This document shows, piece by piece, positions 8,550 through 46,650 of a stretch of DNA of 64,000 nt. Source of the DNA: Sipunculus nudus (taxonomy: Eukaryota > Annelida > Sipuncula > Golfingiida > Sipunculidae); contig CM049322.1 in the NCBI GenBank assembly GCA_026874595.1, positions 39,033,340 through 39,097,339 of the forward strand. The letters are read 5' to 3'. The notes beneath the pieces were generated by a model, which saw only the letters and a list, made by a program, of their open reading frames with translations, made no database searches and was not told where the DNA came from. Position numbers and translations under genes: made by a program. How positions within the stretch are numbered: the stretch's first letter is position 1; each line of letters starts with the position of its first letter.

Positions 8550-10640
8550 CGTTAGATCTGTAAATTAAAAATAGGTTCTATTACCGTTCAAAAACTTTCA
8601 TTCTCTTGCATTTCACTCGTTTGCGTGTGCCACTTTGGCTCCCCTGAGGGCAGTTTAAGAAACTAACCAAGCTTTACCAACGGCATTGTCATCTGACCCT
8701 CTCTTCCGGTGAATCTGTTCGAAAAGGTCACGCACGTATCTAAAAACAAATAAGACTCATCTTGAACAATCAAGCTACGCATTAAATCCATTTTTTTTTC
8801 TGTCAATTACGTAGGTCGAAAAGAAACATGGTTTCCTCTCAGTAAAATGGCGTTAAATTATTCATTAACTGTCGTACGAGTTGACGCTTGATCTCTGACC
8901 TATTTTTTGAAAATAATATTTTCCGAAAGAATAGCACGTCCCTCTACGATTTCGGAAAAACGGCGATCTACTGTTATATCTTAAACCATGTTTATTATGA
9001 AAGTTAATTACAGGTAAAAGGGGAGGATATGGTAGAGGGTGTCCACTTCCCACACTGAGAGAATTTTTAAAGTCAAGAGAAAATTTAGAAGCACCTTTAC
9101 AAAAAATAGGGGTATTTTTTGTCCTCGACTATTTTTCTCTTTAATGACTTTGCATAACGTAGTCAGACCTCATAGGGTGAGGTTTTCATTTATAGTGTGT
9201 AAATTTCTTCAGATTCAGATATTAACTGGAAAGTCCTAACATTCAATCGTTTTTAAGATGTCGATACGTTTATGGTGAAAATGGGGATCTACTTTATCTT
9301 ATATTTGCAAAATACCATAGTTCAAATGTATTTCTCCTAGTAATATAATTTTTGTAGGTTCACTTTGTATGTTAAATTTTGCATTTTATCGGCTTCTGTC
9401 GGCCCGGCAGTGCAAAAACCCAACTGAGCACAGATCGTGAGTTTGATTATCAGCCGATGAAACGTGAGATTTTTCACGGTCGACTTAGCCCAAGCTGATT
9501 TCCGTAGTTTAATAAGAAGGCCTTGCCTCACTCGTAGGCGAATGTGTAACGGATGGGGGGGGGGGGGGGATTCTTGGTGTTATGGCCGAGCAAACTGTAA
9601 TAAGGAAAAGGTCCCTCCCTCAGTATAGACACCTTTGGATGTTTTTAGCATCCACAGCTTATGAATCAGGATGACATAAACTGTGGATAAATTAATAATT
9701 CAATTGCTAGGAAGTAAAATTTTATGATAATAATAATATTGTGCCCGATTCATATAAAGAAACGGGACTGCCCAGGACAATTGTACAGTTTTAATTAATA
9801 ACACAGTAACATTTTTGTTACTATTACATATGTCTTTTTCAGAAATTGTGATATTGAAATTCATTAACTTTTTTATTGGCCAAGTTAATCCATATCATAG
9901 ATTTTCAAAATGTTTAATATAATTATGGTAATTTTTATAAAGAAAATTGTGTATTTAATATTGTATTTTATCAACGGTTATGATATTTATGTAATTAAAT
10001 CCAAATCTAGTAATTAATTAATTTTAACAAACGTGTCATTAATTTCAACCGATAATATCTTATCCATATATATTTTTTCAGTATTTTATTAATTTGTTAT
10101 AAAAATTCTGATAATATTGTAGGAATAATCTATTCACCGTATGTTTATTTCTAAATTTTCTTATGAAATGTAAATAAAAATAAATCATTTATGCACTTTA
10201 AATAATTTATGGTTAAACATAAACTCTGATTAAAATCATTTATTGTTTGTTTATATCACACGTTATTGTGTGGAACAGCCCAATCCACTACCACCACTAA
10301 ACCAAGCTCTCTTTTGCTAACACGTCAGCCAATTAGTCACAGAGAGTAACCCACCCTATTTCCTGCCTAATTAGCCCTGCTCTATCCTGCATTTTCTATC
10401 CAGCCTGCAGGTCACAAGAAATGGAACTAACCCTGAACACGCTTGTTTGCCTGCTCTCTAAGAAATTAAAAGCCAATTTTCACTTTGTATTTAAGTTTAT
10501 TTTAAATTTAAAAAGTAATTAAACTTGCATAGTGTGACCTTTTACCTGATGCTATTTAATTTAATTTTTTTTTTGGTGATTTTTTTATGCATCTAGGTAT
10601 GTCAACCCCCATAATCCGATTTCTTTTAGTTTCACTATCT
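8550..10640. other. AT-rich intergenic DNA, no gene seen
   Basis: Contains a 15-G run (9555-9569), a strongly AT-rich stretch (about 9680-10255) and then an abrupt, more GC-rich block (about 10258-10450) of unknown nature. No domain-bearing frame is visible. Confidence 0.5.
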
Positions 10641-11139
10641 GCTGAGAGATGGCGCTACAATTTGGAATTTCCAATACTCGGCCACAGTTGTTTGACCTAA
10701 ATAAACAAAGCAATGGAGTCACAGGACCTGTGTTTGTATTTTCACGAGTGTTCGGCTCGTCGCTTTGGATAAAACATTTTGTTTACATGGCTATTTTATA
10801 TAACCATTGTAATTTTACGTATTTACAGAAGGTGAAATAACCATGAGTGAACACAAGCCGAGTTGTCAATGATGATTTCAAGTCATACTCTCTATTTACC
10901 CGTTTCTTTATGTCATGATACAATTAGTGGTGACCCTAGAGAAAAGGCACGACAACCGTTCTTATAAGAAAATCGGGTTAAATCCTTTCAGCAGTATGAC
11001 TAGCTCATTCAGTGTCACACCTGTTCTACGCCCTTTTTTCGCTCCAAATTACGCTTGCTAAAAGAACAAATATAAATAAAAAAAGGAGTCCTTACTAAGG
11101 TGATAGGATTATATATGACAATACTGATTTATCTTCCAC

Positions 11140-11141
<2 letters not shown>

Positions 11142-11198
<57 letters not shown>
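11142..11198. repeat. compound (CT)n(TA)n microsatellite
   Basis: About 12 CT units pass directly into about 17 TA units. It forms the tail of the SINE-like unit that runs leftward from 11460. Confidence 0.95.
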
Positions 11199-11199
<1 letters not shown>

Positions 11200-11200
<1 letters not shown>

Positions 11201-11460
11201 TGTATGAATAGCCATGCTGGTTCATTGTTTTATAGATGGAAAGGGTATACACAGAAAAGTGGTTCACTGCCAGTGGGATTCGAACCCACGATCTTCCGAT
11301 TTCCGGTGCAGCTGCCTTATTCCACTTGGCCATGACAGATCCCCAACCCCTCTGTGTATTTGTACACTTTTATAGGAACCAGCAGCGAAGTGACGTCATG
11401 GTAGTGACGTCATAGTCTCACCGACTACACGTGTCGGCACGGCGACTTTTGCATGCAATG
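11200..11460 (-). mobile_element. tRNA-derived SINE-like element, minus strand
   Basis: On the minus strand a tRNA-like head has an A-box-like TGGCCAAGTGG (11322-11332) and a B box GGGTTCGAATCCC (11275-11287), followed by a shared body and a (TA)n tail. The whole unit, including an upstream segment with 'gccgacacgt', TGACGTCA and 'ggttcctataaaagtgt', is closely matched on the plus strand at 27590-27835. Internal RNA polymerase III boxes plus two dispersed copies support a SINE. It is not a functional tRNA, as no complete acceptor stem or cloverleaf is seen. Confidence 0.7.
11391..11412. promoter_or_regulatory. two CRE-type TGACGTCA palindromes
   Basis: Perfect TGACGTCA octamers at 11391-11398 and 11405-11412, 14 bases apart, lie in the SINE-like body. 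The second SINE copy has one (about 27640). This is the consensus CREB/ATF site in animals; binding here is inference. Confidence 0.5.
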
Positions 11461-13319: not shown

Positions 13320-14312
13320 ACATAAAGAGGAAAGGGGACATGGCCAAGGTGCAAACATCGTTACATCTGAGTTATCTATAGGAACACGCAGATTGTGACC
13401 TAGTCCTACCTGAAGTGATAGATCTAGAGATCACAGACAAATATACTGTCCTAGTTTAGGTTAAATATCTGTCCATAAACGGGGGAATATTGAACAAACT
13501 AACATTGAAATCACGTGATGAGAGACATCTCCATCTGCTTCAACATTTAAACGCTCTAGCATTATCATGGCTCAAGTTGTCGGGTGGGATGTATGGTTTA
13601 CCTTGCTCTGTGGATACACAATACAAGAACTTGACGACGTCATCCTCACAAACTTCCCGCTAAAAACACTGCAAGAATGGAGGTTAAACCGCAATACTGA
13701 ATCTGGACAGAAAATCGTAACGTATAATAATGATGGCAAAGACAATGATGATGACACTTCTCCTGACATGTTGGATGAAATCAGAGCAAATCCGTCGGAT
13801 TCAAACCTGGAGCTGTTAGAGTTTGCTCGAACACCTTTGACCAGCGTCGCTGTCCATAAATTTGCACAGTGAAAGTCTAGCACACCTGTAACAACACTGG
13901 CAAACAGAACTTGTTTGGTCACATCACAAAAAGTTCTGGCCAGTGGTGAACTGACTACCAGACTGTCATAAATGCATCCATCTTGAGGTACAAAATAATG
14001 ACCTGGATTACAACATGGGGGAAAAATTAAGCAACGCAGAAAAACTTGCTGGTATCAAAAATTTGGATATGTCACGTCTGTCGTCTACCGTATATTTGCC
14101 GGTGAGACGGAGAAAGTAAAACAAACGCTGACAATAAAGTGTCCAAATCTTGGCCTGAAGATATAAACACCATTTCCACTAGTTCGTATAAAATAATTGT
14201 TATACTGAAATGCTGATCATATTTTTATAGAACCTTCTGTGGGGTCAAGGAGCCCTTGGTCCGCGATCCTTTTATTGCTGCCTGGTGCCACTGCATCAGT
14301 CCCTTTAAACAT

Positions 14313-14315
<3 letters not shown>
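13320..14315. other. no confident gene; unrecognised frame
   Basis: A plus-strand frame of 101 codons (13567-13872) with an acidic NDGKDNDDD stretch has no domain I recognise and overlaps a minus-strand frame of similar length. It may be part of an unidentified transposon. The remaining sequence shows nothing. Confidence 0.3.

Positions 14316-14317
<2 letters not shown>

Positions 14318-14361
<44 letters not shown>
14318..14361. repeat. (TA)n microsatellite
   Basis: About 22 TA units without interruption. Confidence 0.95.
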
Positions 14362-16169: not shown

Positions 16170-17155
16170 CAATCCTTGACGTCACTTAGAAATTTTTTTT
16201 CGGTAGCTGGTGGTTGACATCTTCTATACAAATAATCGCTTGCTGATGAGTCTTCAGTGAAGTACATGATATTGTTTATTACATTCAATAAGGAAATTCA
16301 GCAAATGCGCTGAATTACTTTCCCTGTACATTGCTAGTAGTATCAGGTAATTTATAAATACAATATCCCTAATACCACTACGGCGTCAGTCACAGATACC
16401 AAGAAAAAAAAATGGTTTATACAGCAATATCTAGCCTTAATGTTAACTAAACACATTTCCCTAAATCAACTTTGTTTCTCAACATTTTGGATGATAACGC
16501 ATTTATATCGCGCAAAGTACTGTTATGACTCAACAAGTACTCCAAACACGTTCCTATATTCGTAACCACGGTTACCGTGGCACGGCTTTTCATCTGTTTA
16601 AGACACAAGGACTTTGTTCACTTTGTAAATCCTGGACACCTTGGTACCCGTGTGACAGCTTGCAGATGTCGCCCGGGAACCAGTTTGATATGAAGAACAC
16701 TTTTTCCAAATATTCCATGAATAAGACTCGCCTTACTTCTTGGAATATTGTCGACAGACAGTTGTTTATAAATTTGAGACGGAAGCAAACGTTAGAGAAT
16801 ACAAGCGTGTAAAATATGCCCGGCTAATTTTTAGATTAGTGAAATTCATGTCTGTTCGGCCCTTTAAGCCGATTAAAAAATAAGAAAAAAAAATATCGAC
16901 TGTTTGGCAGAGTAATTGCCAAACTTACATCTAGCCCAAAGGCCCCATCGGCGATTTGCAGGCGCTCTATACATGTTACTACCGCTGTAAACTTGATAAA
17001 AAATTCAAATTGTTGACTGTCTCGTTTAATTTTTCCTTTGATCGTGTGAATGTTCCGTTTACTGTAAACGTGTAGTGGTGTGTCTGTTATGGCTAAATAA
17101 TCCCCTTTTGGGCCTGGTCAGGCTTGATTGCTAAACGCGGATACGATTGACGGCG
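16170..17155. other. nothing recognised
   Basis: A 95-codon frame at 16525-16812 has no identifiable domain. No RNA gene, no clear repeat. Confidence 0.35.
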
Positions 17156-17159
17156 GTGC

Positions 17160-17840
17160 CGAGGGACCGTGCACATCTCAGCCGAGCAACCGGTGTCTAA
17201 CCTAAGTATATGTTCTCGTTTTCATCGCGTATATACAGATATCAATAAACCACGAATTGCTAACATTTGCATTCCCTTTCTACGAATTCAAATACCCCAC
17301 AAAAGTCATTTAAAACATATAATCCAGGTGAACAGTTCACGTAAATCTTCTCAGGGAATAATAGCTCAATGTAATCCCGAAAACAAACTGTTGTAATCAA
17401 AAAGAGAAGTTCTGGTAATATTCCAAAAGGCAAACTGACGACTGTATAAAACCTGTTACAAAATTTCGAAGAAGATTTGCAATTCTGCAATTATCGGAAA
17501 GGTCTACAAATTGAATCACACTCTTCCGTGTCCGCTGGAATTTTTCGGCTCTAAACACAGCCCCTAATTTATAACGTCTAACCTCCTCAACAATCCAAAA
17601 TAGACAACAATACGTAATACACACGCGCCCAAAGAACAATACAAGACGCGCTAAAAGAGAGCATACCGCCCAGAAAATTCCAGAGTAGCACGAGCGCTGT
17701 GTCTTTACACGCCAGAGTTCATCCAGTACGGATTACACCGAGCCCTGCTTTTCTAAACGCCATAGCAATTGACACCCAGGGCTTGAGCCTAACACGAAAC
17801 AGAATGTCAACAGCGCACACTGAAAGAGACACCTGTAACA
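17160..17840 (-). mobile_element. gypsy LTR, minus strand
   Basis: On the minus strand a polypurine-like tract (complement of 17841-17856, with a ggggtgtg core) is followed at 17840 by TGTTACAGG, a typical LTR start, directly downstream of the RNase H relic at 17949-18074. The LTR body is more GC-rich than its surroundings. Its inner end cannot be fixed by eye; about 17160 is a guess from the change in composition. No second LTR is seen in the window, so the element is truncated on its 5' side. Confidence 0.5.
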
Positions 17841-19045: not shown

Positions 19046-19205
19046 TACTCCCCAGCTCCTGAAATGTTATTTCCCTCTAGGAGAAGGATCAGGATTCCTG
19101 GAACATGATGAAGATATGACAGGACACATTGTGATGACCTGATCAGTGGTCAGTGAGGTATTTTAAAGATAAAAATGCCAGATTAGTGTGACCCACGATA
19201 GGGTC
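19046..19205 (-). pseudogene. LRR relic, paralogue of the 22 kb NLR
   Basis: The segment aligns with 22415-22565, part of the LRR region of the neighbouring NLR. Shared pieces include 'agctcc.gaaatgt.att', 'agga..cctggaaca.gatga', 'tgtgatga.ctga' and 'tcagtgaggtatttt'. On the minus strand fragments such as HTNLAFLSLK can still be read, but stops and frame changes interrupt it. A dead copy about 3.3 kb away in the same orientation implies tandem duplication of the NLR. Confidence 0.65.
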
Positions 19206-22057: not shown

Positions 22058-24629
22058 TTATAAGTTAATGCACATATCGACTAACTTCTGATAGAAATCA
22101 TGATTGGTTTCGTTGTCGTTCATGAATTCCAGATTAGGGTGACGAGTCTTGCACACGTCCACAAGTTCAAACCATTCTGATTCTGGTACGTCTGTGTCAT
22201 ACAATATCAGCATCTTCATGTTCTTGAGTAGGTGTGGATTTTGGGTGATGTATGACACATCTTCAATCGGGTTTCCATTTATCAACAGTAAGAACAGTGA
22301 TTCCGGGGTGTTTTGTATGATATGTTGCAGACCCTGCGATGTCATGTTACATTCAGTTAACGATAACATAGTTAAAGGAGTGAGCCTGGACACGGCTTTA
22401 CTGATGGACTCAGCAGCTCCCGAAATGTCATTACCATCAAGCTGGAAGGCCAGGAGCCTGGAACACGATGAGGGCATTGCAGCACATAATGTGATGATCT
22501 GACCCGTAGTCAATGAGGTATTTTCTAAACATAAGGTTGCCAGGTTATTATGAGCCACGAATGATCTGATCCCATCACCGATCAAAGATCGATGTCTTTC
22601 AAAGACATTTCAACAAGGCAAGGTAACTGATTCATATATGACGTCAAAATTTCTCTGCACTTTACAATATCTAGTCTACGTAAATTCAGTTTTCTCCCTT
22701 TTTTACAATCGAGTAAGGATACCAAGAGGCGTTCACTGTCGTCAGGTGACATTCTGTCCATCCTTATCTCAATTTCACGTAGTCCCGTCATTTGACTTAT
22801 GTATTTACCAAGTAGTCCTATGTCTTCAGCAGCTACACATAAAAGACACAAAGCTGAAACATTTTGCAATTCCAAAATAGAAAATATTCTCTTTGATCTC
22901 TCCACAGGCAGCATTTCTGCAGTGATTGCAACATCCATGACCTCCTGCTGTGATTAAACATGGTCACATAAAAGCAGAAGACTCTCAGCCTGCTGAGTCC
23001 CAAGGTCAAACGTTACATAGAGTGGCAAAGGAATATCGATGAGCTCTGCGTCCTTATATTCAAGAATGCAATGATGCAAAACATAGCTGATATCATTACA
23101 GGGCAATGACAATTCCGGAATATCGATTTCGTCATCAAAATTATCATCATCTCCATCAGCACCTTCTTTTTCTTCTCCATAAACTTCATTATCTTCGACG
23201 TCTTCACAATAATTTAGTTCTTTGATACATTTTTCCGTATTAAAATATGGACATTGTCCGCTTGATGGAAATTCCGTTGTTTCCTTTACCACATAAATAC
23301 AATGACTTAAGACAATATTGGCGCATGACAAGCTATAAAGATAATTACACCAGGCCCCAGAACCCCTTCAGCCCAGGAAGTCAATGATCTGTTGATGATA
23401 GTGGTCTTTCCTGATCCTGGCCGACCTTGGATAAATACAAGTTTTCCCTTTTCCTTTAAGAAAGAAACATTTATATATATATATATATATATATAATATT
23501 GGCGCATGACTCCGACAGACCAGCTATAAAGATAATTACATTCCGGGAGTCATGTATCCGAATAATTGTGTTGAGATGTTCCAGCAATGTGTTAAAATAT
23601 TTCGGCGAGTGCACGACAGCATAGGCCGCTAGGAGTTCTTGGAGGAAAAGATGGGAAAATGTAAATTTATTGTCAGTTTCAAATCCTTCAGTAACAGTTC
23701 TTATCATTAACCCTAATTCATGGGCTTTCATAAGTATTTGGTCTTGATTTGACGCGCCTTCGCCCGTGGTAAATGTAAATCTGTTAATTTCGCCCATAAG
23801 ACTCAATAGTGCCAAGATGCCACAACTCAGAATGATCTCGTGATCTTCAGCTAAATTAAGTAAATCTGCCACAGGCGGTGGCTTGACTTTGTGTTTGTAC
23901 ATATCCAATGTAAACTTGAGAACTCTGATATTTGGTTCTGTTTTAGAGCGGCCAAGACCTCTCCCAGCCTCCCAGACTATGCATACCAGGTTCATGTGTA
24001 GCGGAACACTGCACAAGCTCTGCCGATTCTTCTTTTCAATTTCTGTTTGTAACGCGGATGCAGTTTCTTCCAAGACTGCAGGCTGTAATGATGTCATATG
24101 AAACCTGAATTTTCCACTTGAATTTGCGAAGTATTTGCGTATGTACAATGCAATGTTTTTCATCGAAGCCTTGAATCTCGAAAAAGGTTGTATAGTATTT
24201 GACCAGTTTGTAAGATTCACTGCCGGCCTGTGTGTGGCGCGAAGTTACCACTCTCGAGACATCCGGGTATCGTTGACATTTGATTATTGATGTGATGACG
24301 GGTGACGTGGACGGGTCACACTCATCTAACCCATCCAGAATCACGGTCACATCTTCTGGATTATCCTCAAGAAATGTAAATACCTTTTCAACATCTTCAT
24401 CGTACTGCCAGTAAAGCTGTCCACGAATAACGTCAATGAATGTTTCCCCGGGCTTGACATCACGAAGCCAAATATGTAGCATGATGGCATATTGTTCATC
24501 CCTGATTATGGCAGCATCTTCTGCATCAGGCCCCAGAACCCCTTCAGCCCAGGAAGTCAATGATCTGTTGATGAAAGTGGTCTTTCCTGATCCTGGCCGA
24601 CCTTGGATAAATACAAGTTTTCCCTTTTC
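22058..24629 (-). pseudogene. NACHT-LRR (NLR-type) large exon, disrupted
   Basis: NLR proteins are cytosolic STAND ATPases of innate immunity. On the minus strand the exon starts after a polypyrimidine-AAAG acceptor at 24629. Walker A GRPGSGKTT lies at about 24573-24600 and the Walker B-like VTVILDGLDECD at about 24314-24350; helical NACHT-associated sequence ('GFDE..IALYIRKYF', 'PLHMNLVCIVWE', 'FTFSHLFLQELLAAYAV') follows. An acidic linker at about 23110-23200 precedes leucine-rich repeats to 22058 ('NLATLCLENTSL', 'LLAFQLDGNDISG', 'LTMLSLTECNMT'). Lesions: frameshift at an A5/T5 run near 24155-24160; a roughly 175-bp insertion at 23345-23500; stop TAA at 22954-22956; frameshift near 22575. 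Each is small and flanked by good homology, so this is a young pseudogene or an uncorrected assembly. Upstream exons were not identified. Confidence 0.8.
23313..23540 (-). repeat. internal duplication of the NLR P-loop segment
   Basis: 23351-23477 repeats 24527-24653 with about two mismatches in 127 bases. It includes the last intron bases, the exon start and the Walker A codons. The copy is dropped into the same exon, joined by a (TA)n tract (23473-23495), and flanked by two copies of the sequence encoding VIIFIA..SCANI (23315-23348 and 23495-23537; the outer copy has lost about 10 bases). Removing it restores homology but not the other lesions. Confidence 0.85.
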
Positions 24630-24659
24630 CTTTAAAAAAGAAACATTTATATTACAACA

Positions 24660-26235
24660 AGCAACTTATTTATCGGGAAGGAAAATACTACGAACGTACT
24701 GAAATTAATCAGTTTACGTAATTAGTAACACTTGTGTACATAACGTAAATAATAGGGCATTTTCAATTAAAAGGTTATTTTTTATAATACAATTCCTTTT
24801 AATATGACCGCACACCTTATGAAATATCTGTCACGGTGTGTTTGGTCTTTATATTGAAACAATTCCCCGACATGCAAAGTTGACCAATATCGACATCGTG
24901 TTGTCCTCGACCGTACGGCCACCTTGGAATTCTTCCTTATGATCTATGGTAATAAGTCGCAATTCTTTTGCGCAATCGGGTCAACTCCTCGTCATGTGTT
25001 TTCGTGTGAGGAGTGGTATTCTCATCTGTAGATATTTATGAAAGGTTAAGAATAACAATAAAGGAAAACGACGTTTCCCTCTACTCAATTAAACAATCTA
25101 AAATTTGTTAGGCTACAATATAATTTTGTATCAAATAATAATACCAACAAAATATTTGATGACAGCTATTTCTAACAACAATTACAGTTTCTTACAACAC
25201 TTTCTAATGCAACCGTTCCAATGACGCCAAACGTGCATACGTGATGTTACAGCGTGCACCTTTTTCATGGGCATAATTAAAATTTGTTTTGTTATAAAGG
25301 TTCATAAACTAGTATAAAGGTTACCAACATATATATAATGGGTTTCATATTTATTTAAGCATGGTGCTAGGAATATTAAAGAAGTACTGTTTAAATCCAA
25401 AGTGTGTATGTTCTCAAAGTTAGATAAACTCCTACTTCAGAACTCAGAATCAAATCGAAAATGTTATATATTGAGAGTTAAAATATTAGTCAGAGAGTTT
25501 ATAAATCTGTTCACATGATCAGTTGTGGATTTAACATGATGTAACAGATGGTTTGTAGCATCACATAAAGGGAAGTAATGTAACCTCTTCATTATTTAAT
25601 AATTATTCATTTATTACTGTTAAGTATAATCCTTCTTTAAAAAGCTCATACTTGGCAAATGAGATATTGTGGATGGTTTGTTCGAACACACTCCATTGCA
25701 AAGACACAAGAATCGGGTAATGAACGTAAACGTTTGACCTTATATAACAATGGGGTGCTTTGATCTCTTTGTAACCTTATCCATTAGTTAATCCTTTAGT
25801 TAAGACAAGAGGGGGAAGGCGTGATACCAGCGTTAGGAATATGCAGGATCTATTTCTAGCTTTTTTATAGTTATGAGCAGTGTACTGTATTGTTATTTTT
25901 TACATATTTTAAATTCTTTTATTTAGTTATTTGCAATAAAAATCGAACTTTTTCATAAAATATTTATAAGTTATGGAAATAAACTGTTTGGTACTGTGTA
26001 TGTTGCTACACGTATTAAATGAGTTTCTTTAATAATGTCTGGGAATGAAAAAAGAAATACTTGTAACTTAAACTTGAAAATTATTTCTGCACAACAATTG
26101 AAGCGTGCGGGTTATATTTTAGGCAATAATACAGGCGACAAGAGAATTATGTTAAATGAATGATTAGGATAGTTGCTCGGCTACATAAAATACAGTGTGC
26201 TTTTTTAAATGAGCATTGATTTACTCCCTTGTATA
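24660..26235. other. spacer between NLR and CARD, no exon confirmed
   Basis: The 5' end of the NLR transcript should lie here on the minus strand, and any first exon of the CARD gene on the plus strand, but no exon was identified with confidence. A minus-strand open segment near 24890-24990 (about 35 codons) is a weak candidate. Confidence 0.35.
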
Positions 26236-26238
26236 CAG

Positions 26239-26683
26239 AGGACGGGCCACAGAGGAAACAAGAACAGCACCGCTGCTATGTGAGGTGAGGAAGAAGAGGT
26301 TAGAAAAACTTCGACCAGAGCTAGTCCAGCGTATCCACTTTTCTGAAACATTACTCTGGTCCGAACTCATGTCAAGTGGAGTCGTATCAAGAATTGATAC
26401 TGAGACCCACGTCAGTCACACCTATTACTGAAGAACTATAACTTACTCAGCTAATTTAAAATAATTATTTTGCAAAATGAAGGTAAGTGGTGGCAAACCG
26501 TGATTTTTCTGTGAATTGAAATAAAAAAATGGTATTTATTATATCTGTATGATTTTATAATTCTAGAATATGGATCCCAACCACAAACAGGCTGAGTGGC
26601 TTTTGGATCATATAAGCCGGCGTACGGACCTGGATTACGAGAATCTCTGTAAGCGTTTGACAAGACAGGGCAGGGACATTTAG
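26239..26683 (+). CDS. CARD domain, two exons (partial gene)
   Basis: CARD is a death-fold adaptor domain used by NLRs, caspases and apoptosis regulators. Exon A (26239-26410) follows acceptor 'cccttgtatacag' and encodes helices 1-3 (KKRLEKLRPELVQRIHFSET, LLWSELMSSGVVSRIDTETH), ending at a gtcagt donor in phase 0. Exon B (26567-26683) follows 'ttataattctag' and continues in phase 0 with NMDPNHKQAEWLLDHISRRT and DLDYENLCKRLTRQGRDI, i.e. helices 4-6 with the family 'LLd.l.rrg...fc..L...G' pattern. The frame then stops (TAG 26681-26683). A one-base shift would read AKLLRIK, the usual CARD end, so a single-base deletion is likely. It diverges from the NLR 1.6 kb away. No start exon was found. This is either a CARD-only protein or a broken piece of a larger gene. 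Confidence 0.65.
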
Positions 26684-26699
26684 CAAAGCTTCTTCGCAT

Positions 26700-27585
26700 T
26701 AAAGGTTATATTATCAATGTTAATAATGTAACTATATATATTGATACATAAGATATGAATATCACAACAATTTCATGATTTCTCTGTTGTTATGTCTCTG
26801 TTTCATTCGCAACCTATTATTATAAAAACAGTCTGCTTTTTGTCGTAATCTCAACATGGAGAAAAGTAATAAGACACTGAATAAGGAAAGTACTGAGACA
26901 CTCTTTAAAATTATGCATCAACATAAAAAGTCAAAACTTTAATAAAAGATTTTTGCATGCTATAATTATTTTATCTCATCAGAATATGCTGAGGCACAGA
27001 GTTGATAATTCCGCTAATCATAATGTGGAAAGAATCGTCCGCCCAAATTTAGCCTCTCTAACACAAGAACATTTACGGAATTATTCCGCCAAGCAAAACA
27101 AAGTGATATTCCTAAATTATAAAATTATAAAAATAACTTCTTTTTATTTTCAGGTATGTCTGGTGGTATCATCCTTATCTCCCAAAGAGCCATACCATAT
27201 TAGCACTGCACAAATAAAAAAAAACAGATTTTTTTTCTCGTGTCATGGGCGAATCCCGATGATTGCGTAACGAAAAGGTATTCAGGGGCCATGATGCGCA
27301 ACTGCCTGCCCGGCTCTTCAAGTAAATTATATTATTATACTATAAACTTCAAATAAAATTATATAAAGTACTACATCGATGCAATACAGTTAAACAATGG
27401 AAAATAAAACATGCAGTTTACTGTCTCCCAATATTTTTGTGACAATTCATTAAACAAATGTGACAGTTGTTAGTAAACGAGATGTTAATTGGGTCAATTA
27501 ATTGAAGGTAGAGCCAACTATAAAAGTTGTGATCGCTTGTGTCAAATAGAAAACTAAACCATATAAGGCACACCATATAAGGCCA
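26700..27585. other. possible further exon, otherwise nothing
   Basis: A plus-strand segment from 26983, after acceptor 'ttttatctcatcag', is open for about 45 codons (NMLRHRVDNSANHNVERIVR and onward) and could be a further exon of the CARD gene, but no domain is recognised and the phase does not obviously match. Confidence 0.25.
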
Positions 27586-27589
27586 TCAA

Positions 27590-27835
27590 CTCTACCTGCT
27601 GCATGCAAAGTCGTTGTGCCGACACGTAATGGGTGCGACTCTGACGTCACGGTTGTTGGTTCCTACAAAAGTGTGCAAAAACACAGAGGTGTTAGGGATC
27701 TCTCGTAGCCTAGTGGCTAATGCAGCTGACCGGAAATCGGAAGATCATAGGTTCGATTGCCATCGGCAGTCCGACTATTCTGTGTATACCTTTTCCATCT
27801 CTATACAATGAACCAGCATGGCTATTCATATATAT
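27590..27835 (+). mobile_element. tRNA-derived SINE-like element, plus strand
   Basis: A-box-like TAGCCTAGTGG (27706-27716) and B-box-like GGTTCGATTGC (27750-27760) stand about 44 bases apart, as in tRNA genes. The body matches the minus-strand copy at 11200-11460, including 'accggaaatcggaagatc', 'tctgtgtatacc' and 'aaccagcatggctattcata'. It has one TGACGTCA (about 27640) and an upstream 'gtgccgacacgt'. The tail is (TA)n to about 27866. Confidence 0.7.
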
Positions 27836-27899
27836 ATATATATATATAGTATACATATATATATATGTCTGAAAGAAGGTTCAATATATATGTGTGTGT

Positions 27900-28975
27900 G
27901 TGATCAATGTCAACATTTTGATCTTGTACCCTATCTGTACCAGACTGCACCAGTCGTGTCATGAATAATGTGAATGTTAACATTTATTAACCTCTGTATA
28001 TGAACAAAATGAACAAAAATCAAGGCAATCGTGTCTTTATACATCCATCAGTAAGAGTACATTTACGTCCACAAGTAATGTATTGGAATCTCACTTGAAA
28101 TGATACCGGTGCATTCATTCTATCATGCAGAACCTCCTTTCTGTCTACATATATGTACGGTAGGTATGTTAAATTATTTGACAACCAACCCTTTCTTCTT
28201 TTTCTTAATTCCTAACTTACATTTTCTTACCTGATAAATCTGATTACCTAACATCCTTTGATCTTAACATCAGGTCTATCTTCAGTGTAGTAGAGTTAGG
28301 TTAGAATAATTCTGTGAGACCATTGCATGCAAGTGTGTTGGTTTAAAGAATCTCCTTGGAAAGCTGAAATGAGATCCCTGTGGCATATATTCTGTGAGTT
28401 AAAAGGGGTGTTTGTGATCCCCGGAAAAATGTAAAATACATAAAAATGGCCAGATATTTGGCGTTTTTCAATTGTTTTCAAATCGGGTTGCTTGGATTTG
28501 GATAGTTTTTCTTGTACAGAAGACTAGTGGCGCCACCTACGATCTCTAATTATGCCGTTCAATATCCTTATAACTGCCACTTGATAATTGTGCTAGTTCT
28601 CAGATTTGAAGACTGGTGACATGGACCGTAATCTTCAATGTCAATTAAATAACCTTAAAAGTACTGCATATGTTTTCCTCAATTTTGGTACACCTATTGT
28701 GTCTTGGAGTAGTTCTAAAACTAATGAATATGAATTTGATCTTAAAACTTAAGGTCCGATCAATGGAAATCTTTGAAGCCTATATGTTTTGAAATACTGG
28801 CCAAACACTAAATGACACAACTATTATCTTTTAGAAACACCTGACTTCTTGAAAGAGAACGAAACCTGAAGATGTTGAGTTCAAATTGACAAAGATCAAG
28901 ATCATAGGGTCCGCTGCTTTAGAATGATTCTTTCATGCATTTGATGAAAAAAAGTTTCATACGAAATCTTTTATC
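27900..28975. other. nothing recognised
   Basis: AT-rich flank of the LTR retrotransposon; no coding frame with a domain. Confidence 0.45.
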
Positions 28976-28980
28976 TTTGA

Positions 28981-29245
28981 TGTATGTCACCAGAGATTAG
29001 TTACCTAATTTATTCAACGAATATTATTGGATGTTAACGTAGTTGTAGGGAACCCAAGTGTCATGTTTTGGGTTTAGGCCAGTGCAGTTTTGAGTCAGTA
29101 AAAACTGTCTTATCTGGACCGGTTCCTGTAGCCTTAGAGACAGCTAACCTGTATGCTTGACTTTTGGTACATTTGTCTCTGTAGGGGTGTCCAGTTGTTT
29201 TGTATTCATATGATCGAACGATGGGCCAAGGACGGTTGCTGAGAG
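28981..29245 (+). repeat. left LTR (partial)
   Basis: Begins TGTATGTCACC and aligns with the right LTR to 'gatcgaacgatgggccaagg' at about 29230. Beyond that similarity fades, so either the LTR interior diverged or a rearrangement removed its end. 29280-29920 is more GC-rich leader-like sequence without a clear primer-binding site. Confidence 0.7.
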
Positions 29246-29929
29246 GCGTTGATTTCTGTGCGTAGAAGGTCAGTGTCAAAGATCTTCAACGGGAAACTCA
29301 TTAACGGACTTGAGCGTGGAAGCGACTACGGGGATCTCTCTGTATAGGACTACAGAGTGGATATCGAAATTACCAACGGACTGGTAACCCGTCGATGTGG
29401 TTTTACCGTTGCGAAGTCCGGCAGACAAGGAAAAATCTATACGCTATCCGTGGGTGGTACTGGATCCGTCAGTAGTTAGCTGTACGGCAAGGGACACTTT
29501 GACGCGTGTACTATGGTGACTCAATTGAATTGTATCGGGCGCCTGTTGAGTGTACCATAGTGAATCCAGGAAACCCGATCGTGCGTGACGGCTATGTGAT
29601 AATCAGCCAAGGGACCCGGGAGCTCTAGTAAATTTACAGTGGGTTGACTCTGTGGTATTGTTATTGTATAATACGGACTCAGTGTCATGTGTCTGGAATG
29701 TGGAAGGCCTCTCCAGAGGAGGGTACGTTTATCATGATTTTATTTGCTTTGATTTGGTAGCACTTGTTTTTCTCATCTTCTGTGTGAATGTGCAAGTTCA
29801 GCCAGTTTGGTCCACTTTTTTAACGAAACCTGGAGTGTCCCCCCCTGGGGTTGTGATAATATGGCAAGCGTTAATGTGGGAATTTCGCATTTAATGACGA
29901 GCATTGGTTTGGCCTTTTAAGTGCTGGGT

Positions 29930-32135
29930 TGCAACCACTGTTGTAATAACGTTCACTATTGAATTATTTATTACAATAATGGTTGATAAGGGCCAGTGTG
30001 TGCCAACCACTTTTGTAATACCGGTCACTATTGTAATAATAATTACGAAAGTGGTTGCAGTTAACAATTTATTACAATTAAAATACATTGTAATAATTAT
30101 CGTTATTGATATAAATTATCACACAAGGAAAGCATTTCAAGATGAACGATGAGAGGAATTGCAGCTGAAGTGGTCAGATAGAAGTGGTCGCTAGGTTTTG
30201 ATACATTAGTGGCTTTTATTGTGCAAACTTCCTCGGAACGGGAGACATTGATTTGGGTTCGTCTGTCTGTCTGTCTGTCTGCTCTTACAGGAAGTAAAAT
30301 ATGAGGTCAGTTACAGGTAGACAATGTACTTGTGGGGTTTATTTGTACACTGTGGGGTTAACCTATCAAAGAAGGTTTCTCAAAGTAGGAAAAGGTATTT
30401 CGGGTGTTTTTGTGTGGCTTTGGGAAAAAAATACCCCACAATGTTTTGTCTGTATGTCTATAAGCCATTTGTAAGTTGTGAAAAGTGTCTGCACACCATC
30501 TTAGCACCGTATGGTGTTGCCACCGACATACGATCTTGTGGACCTAAGAGTAAGACTCGTACTCTGCGCTATTACGACCCGCTGCTCTTTGCCAAGCATG
30601 TGATTTAAAAGTTCAGCAGTGACTATATATTTTTTGTATATTTGTAGTTGTCTGTGCTTAAGATGGGTTGAAAAAAACCCAGGATGATAGACCATTAACA
30701 CCATATGTACAGACTGAAATTCCTCATTTGATCCACGGTACAAAAATTAAAGCTGTCTCCACTATGTAGCATTTTTTTTTTCTTATTTATGTCACCTTAT
30801 AATGGACAGACAAAAAACTGCACAGTGTAGCAACTGTGCGTATGTCTGTCTGTCCGTCCTTCATGTTTTTGTTTCCGTGCGATAACTTTCCTAAATATTA
30901 TCAGATTTCATTAAGATTTAGGTAAGTGGTTGCTCTTATTCGTATCTTGCAGTGTCTGTCTGAAAATTTATTCTCTACAGCCCAAACAACTAAAAATATT
31001 GTTTCCAAGTCACAACTAAATAATATAACACGTGGAGACTTCATCAGGGGCAAAGAAACCTAAGAACCTACCACTTTGAAATGTGGAGACAAATTCTGGC
31101 GAAAATAAAAACTATACATTGATAGGGCAAACAAGAAGAACAACATGAGGCAGATTTCGACGAATTTGCTTGTTACAATAATGGTTGATCTACCCGGTCA
31201 ATAGACAGTAGTGTAATAACGTTAATTATTGTAATAAATATAATTATTGATATATATTATCACACAAGGATGGAATTTCGACATTTTAAAAGTCCATAGT
31301 ATTTTACACTTGAACACAAATATATAAATTATATACAAATTATCACGTAAGGATGGATTGCAACGTTTAAGAATACTATAAATCCCCAGTATTAAACACT
31401 TTTAGAAGTGTCCCCTAGTATTTATTACACTTAAGGGACCGCTTACAATACGGTTGCTCGGCGCGATCACTATGGATAATAAAAGTTACTATTGTAAAAA
31501 AATGCCGTTATTTGTATAAATAATGGCTTAAGGATGGAATGCTACGTTGTAGATCAATAAAAATCACCAGTATTTTAATACTGAATACATATATATGAAA
31601 TTAGTGGCATTTCAAGATGAACGATGAGAGGAATTACTTCTTACGTCGTCAGATAAAGTGGCCCCCCGTTTTTATTACAATGGTGGTTGTTCAACGGGGT
31701 CACTATTTAAAAAAAATGTTGTCGTTGATATAAATAATGACGTAAGGAAGGATTGTTACATATTAATAAAAATAAAAGTCCCTAAATAGTATACAATAAA
31801 ACACAAATATATAAACATTTAAATTTAAGAAAAAAACAGATTAGACACCTGGAGCAGAGAAACTAGGGGCCGCTGGTTATTATTACAATAATATTGTCAA
31901 AAAAGTCACCAGTATAATGTTTCAAAATACAAATAAGTGCTTTTGTCGGAAAAGTTACGGTGAATTGTGTTTTTTTTTCAGGGAATGGCATTTGTTTGGA
32001 AGAATCTCAACGAAACTGAGAACATTTTCCGCAAATAAAATCAACCATAATTTTTACAATAGGTCCCGTTATTAAAACTGGCCCTTACCAACCACTATTG
32101 TAATTATTATTACAATAGTGAACGTTATTATAAAA
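29930..32135. mobile_element. palindrome-rich insertion with inverted ends
   Basis: Left end 29937-29998 is an inverted match of 32075-32135 ('taataacgttcactattg' through 'taagggccagt'). Multiple hairpins share the arm 'caaccactnttgtaata' (29930-29990, 30002-30060, 32093-32120). A perfect one has 12-base arms CACTATTGTAAT/ATTACAATAGTG and a 4-base loop (32093-32120). Internal diverged repeats of a 'gatataaattatcacacaag' unit occur at about 30105, 31240, 31335, 31515 and 31718, and 'catttcaagatgaacgatga' occurs at 30133 and 31610. No transposase is visible, so it looks like one or more nested non-autonomous elements. A (TCTG)n run lies at 30261-30281. Confidence 0.6.
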
Positions 32136-32639
32136 GTCTTTCAACAGGAATGATATCCTTTCAGGATTTTTATTGCCTGTGCATTTGGTCAATTTTTCAT
32201 ATAGATTAGTGATATAACTTCTTTGGATTGTTTAATGGTTTGTAGCAACCTATTTTGAAATCGAATCAGTGCTGAGACTTGACGAATGCACATTTCATAT
32301 CAGTTCATTTCAGGTTAATATTTTGACATAGTGAACCACGGTTATGTGCTTAATATTTATAAGGCTAGAGTAGAGATTAGACAGAGCTATTTAGGTTGAT
32401 AAAATATCTGAGGTTTGTGAGGATTTGTTGAGTGAGGTCACACAAAAGGTGTTTCCTTTTGAAAAGATATAAATGACACATACTTGGTGTTTATCCGTTT
32501 GTCCGTGCGTCTTTTGATTTTCGGTGCAACCCACTTATGATTGTAGGGATACCACCGGCTCGCTTTATCAGCGTTTTCTGTTTGCGTATGCGGATCCTTT
32601 GAATATGGTACGCGTTTCATTTGTGTAATTGGTCAGTTT

Positions 32640-33255
32640 AACCGTAAACATGGAGTCTTTGAAATCCATTGTCGAGGTTACTAAGACGTTGCTCTACAAA
32701 AACAAGTTTTTTTTAACAAGTGTTGAGGCGTTAGAAGCCAAGCTGCTGGGGGAGTGGGGGGGTGGGGGTGGGGGGAGGCTCTATGAGAGGGCTAGGCAGC
32801 GAGAGATAGAACACGAACAGAGAGAGAGACAGAAAGGGAACGTGAAGCAGCAGAGCGGGAATGCGTAGAACGCGAAACTGAGAGAGCTCACGGGTTAGGA
32901 ATACTGAAATTAAAATCAGCATTCAGCGATAGTGAGGGCGATGGTTAACAGATGAGGAGTAAGGAATCAGTCCCGAAGCTCAAGCTCTCTCCGTTTGACG
33001 ATCAGCACGATAAACTAGATGCGTTTCTCGAGCGATATGAACGGTTAGCGTTTTGTCAAAAGTACGATCGAGAGAGCTGGGCTTTGTACTTAATCCTTTG
33101 TTGCGTGGTAGCGCTCTTGTTAGCGATGCCATAAATTGCGAAAAGCTAAAGTTAGCCCTTTTAAGCGTTTCCAGATGACTGAGGAGTGTTATCGTAGCAA
33201 GTTTCGTACTTGAAGGTCAGAGCGAGGCGAAACCAACAGTCAGTTCGCGGTGCGT
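32640..33255 (+). pseudogene. retrotransposon gag relic
   Basis: Frames read a leader with MESLKSIVEVTKTLL, a charged Arg/Glu-rich coiled stretch (REIEHEQRERQK), then PKLKLSPFDDQHDKLDAFLE with RYERLAFCQKY and, after a break, FQMTEECYRSKFRT and QFAVRL. This follows the usual gag outline 'KLP.F....D..D.YL.RFERYA...W' and 'TE..YR..FR'. Frameshifts and a stop (about 33211) break it. 'QFAVRLM' runs directly into integrase sequence, so the gag 3' end, protease and integrase front half are deleted. A G-rich run (32746-32778) interrupts the frame. Confidence 0.65.
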
Positions 33256-33259
33256 CTCA

Positions 33260-33850
33260 TGCGTGAAAGGGATGGTGGAAAGATTCAAAGGCACACTGAA
33301 ACAGATGTTAAAGCGTAAGTTCGCGGAGAGTCCACGGGTTTGGGATCGATACTTGAGCGCGGTACTCTTTGCATATAAAAGGACACCACATGAGGTCACA
33401 GGTTTATTTCCTTTTGAGTTGCTCTACGGGCGAGTTGTGAGAGGTCCCATGCGCCTTTTACGCTCTCTGTGGACCAAACGCCAAGCGGATGCGGAAATTA
33501 AGACTACGTATCAGTACATTCTCTATCTCTAGGACAAGCTGAGCGATACGTGCGCGCTACCTCGCGAAGCTTTGAGGAAATCCGCGGATGGATACAAACA
33601 GTTCTATGTCCTGGGCAAACGCACCCGCCAATTTTAGATAGGGGATGTATGTCTTTTACTCCTCTCGATGGACCGTAACAAACTGCTTCCAGTGGAAGGG
33701 CCCCTACACCGTTGTATCTGGAGTAGCTGACCTAGACTATCGGGTTAAGGTCGACATCAAGTTAAAAAGTTTTCATGTGAAAATGCTGAAACGGTATCAG
33801 ACCAAAGCTGATCCTCAGCATGTGTTAGAGGCGGTCACCTTGTGTACGAC
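33260..33850 (+). pseudogene. integrase C-terminal half with GPY/F domain
   Basis: The frame from 33269 reads GMVERFKGTLKQMLKRKFAE with ESPRVWDRYLSAVLFAYK and TPHEVTGLFPFELLYGRVVR. This is the standard gypsy integrase core end that contains the catalytic Glu of 'VERF'. A stop at 33530-33532 and frame changes follow. From about 33690 'WKGPYTVVSGVADLDYRVKV' is the GPY/F module with 'KSFHVKMLKRY'. The front part of the DDE core and the zinc-binding HHCC region are absent. Confidence 0.75.
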
Positions 33851-33899
33851 GAAACCGTACGAGAACCGAAATTGTGAAATCTACCTTAGTCGGAGAACT

Positions 33900-34760
33900 A
33901 AACCTCGAGGGAGTTTATGAAGCCTGCCATGTTTCTTTATTGTCGAAGGTGCGTAGCCAAACTGAACTTGACGTTTATATTAAAGCCGAGCTAGGAAAGC
34001 GACAACAGCGCGAGATACGTGACCTGCTAAACCAGTCTGGAGAAGTATTTACAGATGTCCCCAAACTCACCTATGTCATCGAATGCAATAACCGACTCAA
34101 GTCCCCCAGTAAAGTCGAAACCTATCGTGTTCCGTTCGAGTAAAGAGAGATAATGCAATCGGAAATCAGCAAGATGCTAAAGTTGTGCAGCGACATATCG
34201 AACGTGGTGTGCTATATAGACGACGTGCAGGTACACGTAGAGTCGTGAGAGGAGCACGTAGGCACACTCAGAGAAGTGCTAGCTAGACTAGAGCGCGCCA
34301 ACGTTGCGGCTAAACCAGCGAAAGCATTCGTAGGTTATCGGAGTCTTGATTTTTTTTTGCCACCTTGTGGGCACCGAAAACTTAGCTACAAATCCGTCGC
34401 TCCTTAAGAAAATCCAGATCGCGGAAAGACCGAAAACAAAGAAATCCTTGCAAGCCTTTCTATGCCTATCCAGTTACTGCCGAAAGTTTTTGTTTCTGCG
34501 TGTAAAGCAATTGTCAGGTAGTTCAACATTTGAGGAGCACTTGTCGTGTAGACCGTTCACGATCAAAAAACTTCTTAAGCCTCTCAAGTGTATTAGCAAA
34601 GCTAAATACCTAAACATGAGAAAAATGTATAGGCTTTAGAGTTACAAGCGTTTATATTTGAGATACAGGCTGTTTCTGGCAAACTCAATCATGGGCCAGA
34701 CATTTGAAGTAGATTGCCAGAGTGTTGAACTAAAATTGATATTAGGAATCATGTTTAAGA
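33900..34760 (+). pseudogene. reverse transcriptase and RNase H remnants
   Basis: After the integrase end, the frame to 34143 contains 'IRDLLNQSGEVFTDVPKLTY' and 'YRVPFE', the usual gypsy RT N-terminal linker. Most of the RT palm is deleted, then the active-site box YIDD appears at 34213-34224 ('VVCYIDDVQVHVES'), followed by 'LARLERANVAAKPAKAF'. The RNase H end is recognisable near 34635-34715 ('ALELQAFIFEIQAVSGKLNH', then 'SRLPE'). Many stops are present. The order after integrase is what assigns the element to the Gmr1-like layout. Confidence 0.7.
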
Positions 34761-37144: not shown

Positions 37145-40100
37145 TAAATCTCATTATATATAAGATATGATCATAAGTTCAGACACGTTTTAAATGAGTC
37201 CTTATATATAATAGATTTATTACAGTCATATATGAGTGTACAGTTAAATATGATTTTATGTTCAGTGCCAACTCTTAAATTCTCCATAATGTTTCGTAAG
37301 TAATTTTGAAATGTAGTCTTTGCTTCCCAGATGCTCCATTTCAAATTTTAACACATCTGAAATATAGATAAGATTTCTTTTCATAGGACTGTTCATTTAA
37401 AATTAAGAGTTGATAAAACAAAATATATAATTTATGGAATATTTTATATTAAAAAAACAGTTGTGTTACCTCGATGTGACATAAATTGTGCACTCACTAT
37501 GCATTAACATGATTGATCAATTACACGCTCTTGTTAAATGCCCTACATAATTTCAATCGGATACCATTTAACTTATGCTGGCCTGTACATTTCACGATTC
37601 TAATCGTGGAATCATATATGATGAGAAAACGGGCATGGAATATCCTCAAACATTTTGCGGTATGGAACCATTCAGAAAGTGTTACAACGATAATTATGTT
37701 GCACAGTAAGTGTCATTAACATATTCATGAATGTGTGTATACGTAAAAAACTACTGGTGTAATGAAATTGCTTATATAATGTTTTATGCCATGCCAGTAT
37801 TTATATATTGTAAATTTTATTATTTGCCTTGTGCTGGTTATATGGTTTTAAATGGCATGTGTTCAGTTATGTTATTATGGAGCCAGAAGGTTCAAAACTG
37901 AGAGCACATCCTTGTATATAATATATTATATAACGCGTATGGTTTCAAGTAAAATACATATTTATAATTGACACTCAAGAGCATATTTTTGATGTAGTTT
38001 ACCGGGATAAAACTTGCCTTCAGGGCATTTTTACATATTGTGAGACGAAAGATTGTTGAGATCACATATAATCAATTGGTATGAACACATATAGGAAAAT
38101 TGCACTTAAAAGTGTTGTGAATGCAAAAAGTCGATAGCAAAAATATTACATTTTCAATCCTTAAGTAGTGTCTTCATTTTAAGGCTCTCTCTGAAAACTG
38201 CTGCGCTCATCAGGGAGCAATTGAATTCCAAAGGCTTGCACAAACACATGTACATATATCTAATGTTGTTTTCTTATCATTATATGTAAAACATTATGTA
38301 CATCTATCTGTATATGAAATTAAGCCGGTTTATAAGCCACGCATATATTTGTGGACAACGAACATTTAAACATGTTGAATTTAGTTGTAAGTACCGTACA
38401 TGAGCATTTACAGTTTAGCGTCAGCCTATAAATTATACATATAGTGTGGTCTGTCAACTTTACTCTTTGTATAGTACATCCTATATCAATCATTAGATAG
38501 AAGAAGCACAATATCGAAATGTTGGTTACAGACGTTTATCGTGAGGCCCAGTAAGCACCGGCACAGAGAAAAAGAAATCTAATAGGTTGATTGGTTGGCT
38601 TAATATTTTGTTTTTGATAATATTAAGTGGAGGCCGGTTATAACGAAGAAATATCGTATTTTTTTAATAATATGATTTTGTTTAAACGTTTCTCTAACAA
38701 AAGAAAATAGGGCAGTCGAGAGGCAATCTAACTATTTATCAATTTACCTGTGTATCTATTTATCAACTGATACATTTTTTCATTAAATATTACACATTAT
38801 ACAACATTCATTCTAGCTTGACTATAAATGTGTGATGTTAAGGTTGCCCCAACGATGGTCATAAACATAAATGTCCTATCATAAATGTCAAGCCATAAAT
38901 GTGAACGCACAAATAGATTATTCAATTCAAACAGATGATGCTATCGAGAGTTTAAGCCACTTGATTGATGTTATTATATTTTTTTTTCATATTTTGAGTC
39001 ATCAGGGTAAGAAAGACCAAATTCTTGTAAGGGCATATTATATTGCAATGGTCTGAAGTTGCTATCTTATCTAGGTGAAATGGTTAGTTAAGTTTGAGAG
39101 ATTAATTTTGACATCGTTGCGTTTGATTAGTATAAACACACAATAAAACTCATTTCCATACAGAAGATACCTTGAACAATGACATGTGCATTTACTTTAT
39201 TTTGTATAATGTACATCTTACGTGGTGGTGTAATCGTAATAGGGGTTATTGTCCCTGTAGTTATTGGTGTGGAGTAATTGTGTGTGTGTGTTTGTGTCTT
39301 GGGGGGGCAATATTCGGGGTACTTTTCCGAGATTTACTGTCTTGTTGCCAATGCAGACCACAGTAGGTAAATCAAAAATTGATTGCACAACGTAAATATC
39401 ACAATGCAGTATAGGTTTCCAGTTTACAAACAAAATATATATAGTTATAACTCCGACAGGTTTTCTATGTATGAGTGTATGTATACTGTAGGTTCAGATA
39501 ATACCGTGGGCTTAAAAATTCATGGTTTTTTGTACAAAATGCATTTCGAGGGGTTTTTGAATTCGTGGAAAGACAATGAAAAAAATTAGAAAATCATGGT
39601 TCTTAATATCTCCATGAGCGCAAAGAAGACGAGAACATATGTACACAGGTAGTACACCGAAGGCTCGACTTACATGCTTATCACACGGTGCGCCTGTACC
39701 GTGGTTAATCGGGTCAGTGTTGAGCACACAAGCTTAGCCCGGCTCGGGCCTAACAAAGGAATTAATCAGCCATGACCAACACGTGCCGGACGATACATCG
39801 GCTTGTAAGTTGTAAAACCTATACATCGGCTATTAGTTATAACACCTGATCACACCATGTTCATAGAAAACATAAATCCTCACTTGATCGGAGGAAAAAT
39901 GAAATGGGACCGTCCACATGAAGGTTTTTAACTTTTATTTAATCATGGCGGTAGTCACATGAGGCGCCTGTTAATCCCGAATGGGGCGGGTGGGACAAGT
40001 GACAAGTTTCGTTCGACATACAACGTGTCAACTCTTTGGTGATTAAAAAATAGAAACCAGCTTGATGGGTTGACCAGACAGGAATTTTACTCATCTGAAA

Positions 40101-46133: not shown

Positions 46134-46139
46134 AGAGAA

Positions 46140-46650
46140 ACGTTAGCTGAGAAGTCTAAATTGATATAAAATAATAATACCTATATACACAACAAGTTCC
46201 AAACATGACATATGTTAAGCATAAAAGAACACAGTTTAAATATTAATTAAACTAAAGGGGCCCTCAAAGTCCCCGTGTTCCGCCTTGGTGAAAACTTAAG
46301 AACTTGTTCCTTGACCGTGATTGAATATAATAACAGATACAATGACATTATTGGCGCCAATTTGGGTATTGCTTTCCAATTTGTTTCTTTTAATCAGATA
46401 ATTAGCGCTAAAATCGCGCAAATTTTCCCCGAAAATTGCGATTTTGATAAATTTGACTCAAATTTCGGTGATTTGATACATGGATGGGTCCCTTTTTTTT
46501 AAAGTTGGCATTTGTATGAGTGGCACTTCAAATTTTTCAGCGGCACATCCCTACCAAAACCAAAGTTGAGTACACCCCCCCCCCCCCGCCCCCGGGCCCT
46601 AAGGTGTACTGAATATACGGGTGACGAATATAGGTGGTCATTTTAAAGGA
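46140..46650. other. upstream flank of Ginger-like element
   Basis: AT-rich with repeated 'aatttcg/aaaattgcg' words at 46340-46480 and a C-rich run at about 46569-46590. The terminal repeat of the transposon was not found. Confidence 0.4.

Follow-up and report, generated by a model that had tools for sequence, protein, structure and literature searches.

Probable remains of a dead NLR locus: a NACHT-LRR pseudogene and a disabled CARD-like fragment on opposite strands of a 64-kb window

Genes joining CARD, NACHT and leucine-rich repeat (LRR) domains are described for lingula, oyster, abalone and tubeworm (PMC11508797). NACHT genes number more than 200 in Pinctada fucata, where they are rearranged between haplotypes (PMC9646362), and 99 in the clam Corbicula fluminea (PMC8298618), while the Pacific oyster shows expanded immune families and nine Toll-like receptor pseudogenes (PMC4346834). 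The subject of the present analysis is a 64-kb stretch of DNA (the window), presumably from an animal to judge by its domains, introns and repeats. It contains what is quite probably a dead and decayed NLR locus, comprising a NACHT-LRR pseudogene on the minus strand, a disabled CARD-like fragment on the plus strand and a short LRR relic. Neither half encodes a working protein as read. A preliminary description of the locus had proposed a decaying NLR cluster with tandem relics; the decay is upheld by the disablement of both halves and by the relic 2.9 kb away, although "tandem relics" is a strong term for one fragment of about 150 nucleotides. The locus belongs to a kind already known, dead NLR family members being the ordinary debris of a fast-changing family.

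The NACHT assignment is clear. A single open frame on the minus strand (24036-24665) matches the Pfam family PF05729 (NACHT) with an E-value of 1.1e-14 (55 bits against a cut-off of 26.7), and bridging the first frame change by read-through gives 5.2e-16 over model positions 2-166 of 167, in agreement with the NACHT domain that the preliminary description had placed on this strand. Read by eye in the translation, both a Walker A motif (24576-24602) and a Walker B-like motif (24321-24350) are present. The exon starts just ahead of the P-loop and is preceded by a polypyrimidine tract and an AG. Further downstream, in the C-terminal part of the module, a stretch of the form F-x-F-x-H-x3-Q-E-x2-A-A was noted by eye at 23621-23665, which we take to resemble the winged-helix motif of NLRs; searched by itself, the frame carrying it gave no Pfam NACHT match and no NLR match in the PDB. 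A PDB sequence search with the NACHT protein returned ten weak matches, headed by NLRP9 (E-value 0.019) and including an 830-residue "uncharacterized protein" chain (0.035), NLRP5 (0.19) and unrelated ATPases. The NLRP5 alignment, weak as it is, covers query residues 6-343 and was consulted for the winged-helix and helical region. No relatives of the NACHT frame were found in the viral contigs scanned, as expected for an animal gene.

The gene as a whole runs on the minus strand from 24629 to 22058 and had been described as a single NACHT-LRR exon. It is not one open exon: five segments are separated by four lesions, namely two frame changes, one in-frame stop and one insertion (Table 1), so that no intact reading frame is present. 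These lesions, like the stop in the CARD reading discussed below, had been overlooked.

The insertion duplicates a part of the gene itself. Its core, 23348-23476, is 97.7% identical to 24524-24652, a template comprising the end of the upstream intron, the acceptor AG and the P-loop codons. The copy landed about 1.2 kb downstream of its template, at the NACHT-to-LRR junction beside a TA run, and is flanked by direct repeats, the target copies 23495-23540 and 23314-23349, which are 76.1% alike over 46 columns (blastn). Such a structure may have arisen during repair, through template switching onto nearby sequence. The 2.3% divergence of the copy suggests that the insertion is not brand new, and a self-templated insertion of this sort could be dated.

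Table 1. Coordinates of the features of the locus within the window
Feature	Position	Strand	Basis
NACHT domain, N-terminal part	24156..24629	-	Pfam E 1.1e-14, tblastn coordinates, junction sequence
NACHT module, C-terminal part, different frame	23495..24157	-	Frame translation; read-through Pfam E 5.2e-16
Insertion of 181 nt: TA run, copy of 129-nt P-loop segment, second target copy	23314..23494	-	Repeat search, blastn
P-loop region duplicate	23348..23476	-	3 mismatches in 129 nt
Acidic linker-like continuation past insertion, in-frame stop at end (22951-22953)	22954..23322	-	Frame 2 translation
LRR-like segment, by position only	22585..22953	-	No Pfam LRR, no convincing PDB match
LRR-like segment and C-terminal end, downstream of frame change near 22583	22058..22609	-	PDB phmmer, structure model
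Lesion: frame change	near 24157	-	Frame translations, tblastn
Lesion: insertion, 181 nt	23314-23494	-	Frame translations, tblastn/blastn
Lesion: in-frame stop	22951-22953	-	Frame translations
Lesion: frame change	near 22583	-	Frame translations
LRR paralogue relic, frame broken	19046..19205	-	blastn and alignment
CARD-like exon 1, acceptor AG in front, ATG absent ahead of domain	26237..26410	+	Translation, Pfam, junctions
Phase-0 intron, GT...AG	26411..26566	+	Junction sequence; CARD only with exons joined in order
CARD-like exon 2, stop inside last helix, helix remainder in other frame	26567..26683	+	Translation, Pfam

The tail of the minus-strand gene is less distinct than its NACHT module. 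For its last segment (22058-22609), the best PDB matches by phmmer are the leucine-rich repeat protein 9y6s (E-value 0.007) and ribonuclease inhibitor (0.0077); no Pfam LRR family was found above its cut-off, LRR_4 appearing only at 0.11. A single-sequence AlphaFold2 model of this segment shows strands (beginning at residues 14, 23, 53, 82 and 106) in alternation with helices, at a low-confidence mean predicted local distance difference test score of 56.8. Among the 50 of 1151 Foldseek matches listed for the model are chains of the SCF-SKP2 complex, the LRR domain of NLRP1 and ANP32A, together with unrelated alpha/beta folds; none of the 1151 matches reached an E-value of 0.001 or below, the best standing at 0.016. 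No Pfam family was found in 22954-23367. Of the NACHT-LRR architecture formerly assigned to the minus strand, the NACHT half is clear and the LRR half weakly supported, with best PDB matches at 0.007-0.0077 and no Pfam LRR above its cut-off.

A related fragment, the relic, lies 2.9 kb from the main gene on the same strand, with no adjoining NACHT. It retains 74.7% identity over 154 nucleotides (blastn E-value 2.3e-21), and its local alignment score of 152 compares with a maximum of 48 among 300 base shuffles, so that the dead LRR paralogue previously placed at these coordinates is confirmed. The fragment implies that a second related copy once stood nearby.

The two plus-strand exons are probably a CARD fragment disabled in its last helix. 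Spliced together (26237-26410 and 26567-26680), they match the CARD family PF00619 at an E-value of 0.0096, and neither exon matches it singly. The CARD reading ends within the last helix at the stop at 26681-26683; when the out-of-frame tail is appended behind an X, the E-value falls to 0.0024, or 0.0015 after trimming, over model positions 2-83 of 85. The bit scores of the three forms (16.4, 18.3 and 18.9) are all below the Pfam cut-off of 23.9. A six-helix CARD above the cut-off was therefore not found, yet CARD is the best family and is matched end to end. The same holds for the CARD split by a phase-0 intron of the preliminary description, which had proposed a profile search of the joined exons: the junction has GT...AG at 26410/26567 and the match appears upon splicing, albeit under the cut-off. 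Among eight decoys of the untailed form (six shuffles, one reversal and one exon swap), none matched CARD. A PDB search with the untailed joined exons gave three matches, with BCL10 first at an E-value of 0.14 and two unrelated proteins after it. An acceptor before exon 1 and no ATG ahead of the domain indicate that exon 1 was an internal exon.

Several of these observations, and some others, weigh against the reading of a dead NLR locus. Besides the sub-threshold CARD scores, two of the eight decoys reached unrelated families (E-values 0.054 and 0.076), leaving a modest margin, and the tailed CARD form found nothing in the PDB up to an E-value of 10. By codon usage, exon 1 scores 7.6 bits, within the range of shuffled sequences (top 9.1), and exon 2 scores -0.2. 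Support for the LRR identity of the minus-strand tail is weak, and substitutions in the relic at codon positions 1, 2 and 3 (14/64, 11/66 and 20/64) do not show clear past constraint. Lastly, homopolymer runs accompany the damage: the three frame changes, one of which is in the CARD, fall on runs of five, three and three bases, and a run of three adjoins the in-frame stop. Long-read assemblies are prone to errors at such runs, although those of three bases are frequent. Some of the lesions may thus be assembly errors, and in the extreme case the genes would be intact in the animal. We regard this extreme case as improbable. The 181-nucleotide insertion, with its diverged copy, is not of the usual assembly-error kind, although mixed haplotypes could underlie it, and the in-frame stop is likewise atypical. 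The window also has two undamaged frames, of 348 and 242 codons, for which the same lesion rate predicts about 3.2 lesions, with a chance of 0.04 of finding none; the control is rough in that both frames are taken as genes and the longer one has no Pfam match.

How the CARD-like fragment and the NACHT-LRR pseudogene came to lie head to head depends in part on what else is present around them. A tblastn search of the whole window with the read-through proteins (E-values up to 1) gave no further NLR exon; apart from the gene itself, it recovered only the P-loop copy, the relic and a chance-like match of 36 residues at 10606-10713 (0.54). An inverted duplication, which would leave another NACHT gene past the CARD on the plus strand, is rejected on this search. 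Among stop-free pieces of at least 38 codons, no Pfam family was found up to an E-value of 1 in 12 of the 31 plus-strand pieces (24823-27705) or in 14 of the 38 minus-strand pieces (24717-26366). A codon-usage scan of both strands of 24665-32700, with a training set of four frames that included two mobile-element-like ones, found no other stretch above 9 bits; the scan also missed the frames at 22061-23367 and can overlook real exons, a further point on the unfavourable side. An N-terminal effector domain upstream on the minus strand was seen neither in the same 14 of 38 pieces nor by this insensitive scan, which reached 32.7 kb.

The preliminary description had offered two explanations for the divergent arrangement. 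The first, a working bidirectional pair in which a short CARD adaptor and a NACHT-LRR sensor surround a common promoter region, fits the head-to-head placement at a distance of about 1.6 kb, but we reject it as very improbable: both sides are disabled as read, with four lesions in the NACHT gene and a stop in the last helix of the CARD, the CARD exon has no start, and the partial scans showed neither a further exon nor a coding signal between the two.

The second explanation, that a small inversion turned the CARD exons in place within one CARD-NACHT-LRR gene, both pieces decaying thereafter, we consider conceivable but doubtful. CARD, NACHT and LRR do lie in the order expected of a minus-strand gene, at compatible distances and with the CARD piece alone turned; the NACHT exon begins at the P-loop, with no effector domain in the upstream pieces scanned; and genes of this composition are reported for the four invertebrates named above (PMC11508797). 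No duplicated flank marking an inversion breakpoint was found by blastn, however. Four pairs of inverted repeats were seen: three join TA runs (23466-23499 and 27823-27881), and the fourth, weak and AT-rich (26444-26468 and 26962-26986, 76%), has only exon 2 between its arms. The breakpoint search otherwise yielded the P-loop copy with its flanks, the relic, simple and tandem repeats, a short interspersed nuclear element (SINE) with its flank, and, at 14302-14349, a match of 83% over 48 columns lying on the TA run. The CARD may, moreover, come from another kind of gene.

CARDs are found in many kinds of genes, and it is a serious possibility, short of an even chance, that the CARD fragment and the NACHT-LRR pseudogene have separate origins, the former being the leftover of a neighbouring CARD adaptor, caspase, RIG-I-like receptor or second NLR that faces the pseudogene by chance. 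What precedes the CARD exon is an acceptor and not a start, as befits an internal exon of some gene, and the best, if weak, PDB match is the adaptor BCL10. Conversely, the partial plus-strand scans saw no other exon of such a gene, and a chance spacing of 1.6 kb between two cell-death family members would require clustering. For RIG-I-like receptors as the source, an intron phase for comparison is not mentioned in PMC8998645. We give hardly any credence to a more elaborate scheme, in which the locus would document the dismantling and re-use of an NLR gene: the CARD exons would have left by inversion to become a short transcript of their own, and a P-loop cassette, complete with its splice acceptor, would have been duplicated inside the gene. 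A CARD piece that is still transcribed might, on this scheme, serve as a truncated decoy in CARD signalling.

Under the preferred reading of a dead NLR locus, the minus-strand ancestor was probably an animal receptor with an N-terminal effector, a NACHT domain and LRRs. If it resembled known NLRs, its LRRs would have kept the NACHT ATPase closed, ligand binding would have allowed ATP binding and oligomerisation, after which partners would have been recruited by the effector domain. The locus would matter more should relatives show the CARD exons to have been flipped from a CARD-NACHT-LRR gene, since a loss of a domain by inversion would then have been caught here. Alone, it leaves current views of NLR biology as they are, its contribution being one clear NACHT pseudogene in a group of gene families with rapid turnover of copies.

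Elsewhere in the window, a minus-strand frame of 242 codons at 54278-55003, 28 kb from the CARD-like exons, matches a trypsin-like peptidase (PF13365, E-value 6.4e-15); as to a link between trypsin and death domains, the available part of PMC8195603 mentions trypsin for bacterial systems only. An intact frame of 348 codons at 4968-6011 (plus strand) has the look of a seven-helix receptor by eye, with no Pfam match up to an E-value of 1. The minus-strand run at 43614-46142 is mobile-element-like, with Pfam matches to an integrase core (7.3e-16) and an OTU protease (1.5e-5), and includes at 43974-44322 a coding tandem repeat of four 87-bp units; we presume a resemblance to Ginger-type DNA transposons. 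By eye, pieces at 33179-34636 (plus strand) resemble a retrotransposon integrase and reverse transcriptase, for which Pfam gave no such match in three frames. A tRNA-derived SINE-like element that ends in a TA-rich tail occurs twice, at 27690-27870 (plus strand) and 11168-11347 (minus strand), the copies being 84.5% alike. The sole Rfam match, tRNA-like, falls inside the second of these (11265-11339), and ARAGORN found none. A dispersed repeat occurs in opposite directions at 17122-17311 and 39537-39733 (69.2% over 198 columns, E-value 1e-14), and a minisatellite with a 40-bp unit in about 71 copies (65% matches) occupies 60020-62892, with overlapping rows of period 80, 119, 198 and 278.

Set beside known systems, the lone CARD, with no NACHT in the same reading, is like isolated-CARD adaptors such as BCL10, its weak best PDB match. 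It differs from BCL10 in that the match stands at an E-value of 0.14 only and the CARD here is interrupted by an intron and cut short, and an adaptor tail was not found. Bivalve NACHT families (PMC9646362, PMC8298618) comprise multiple copies with varying accompanying domains, unlike the single NACHT pseudogene and short LRR relic in these 64 kb. From the invertebrate NLRC genes of molluscs, brachiopods and annelids (PMC11508797) the locus departs in having its parts on two strands, its gene broken, and its CARD and LRR below curated cut-offs; it is like them in combining a NACHT domain with an LRR-like C-terminus and a CARD-like domain nearby.

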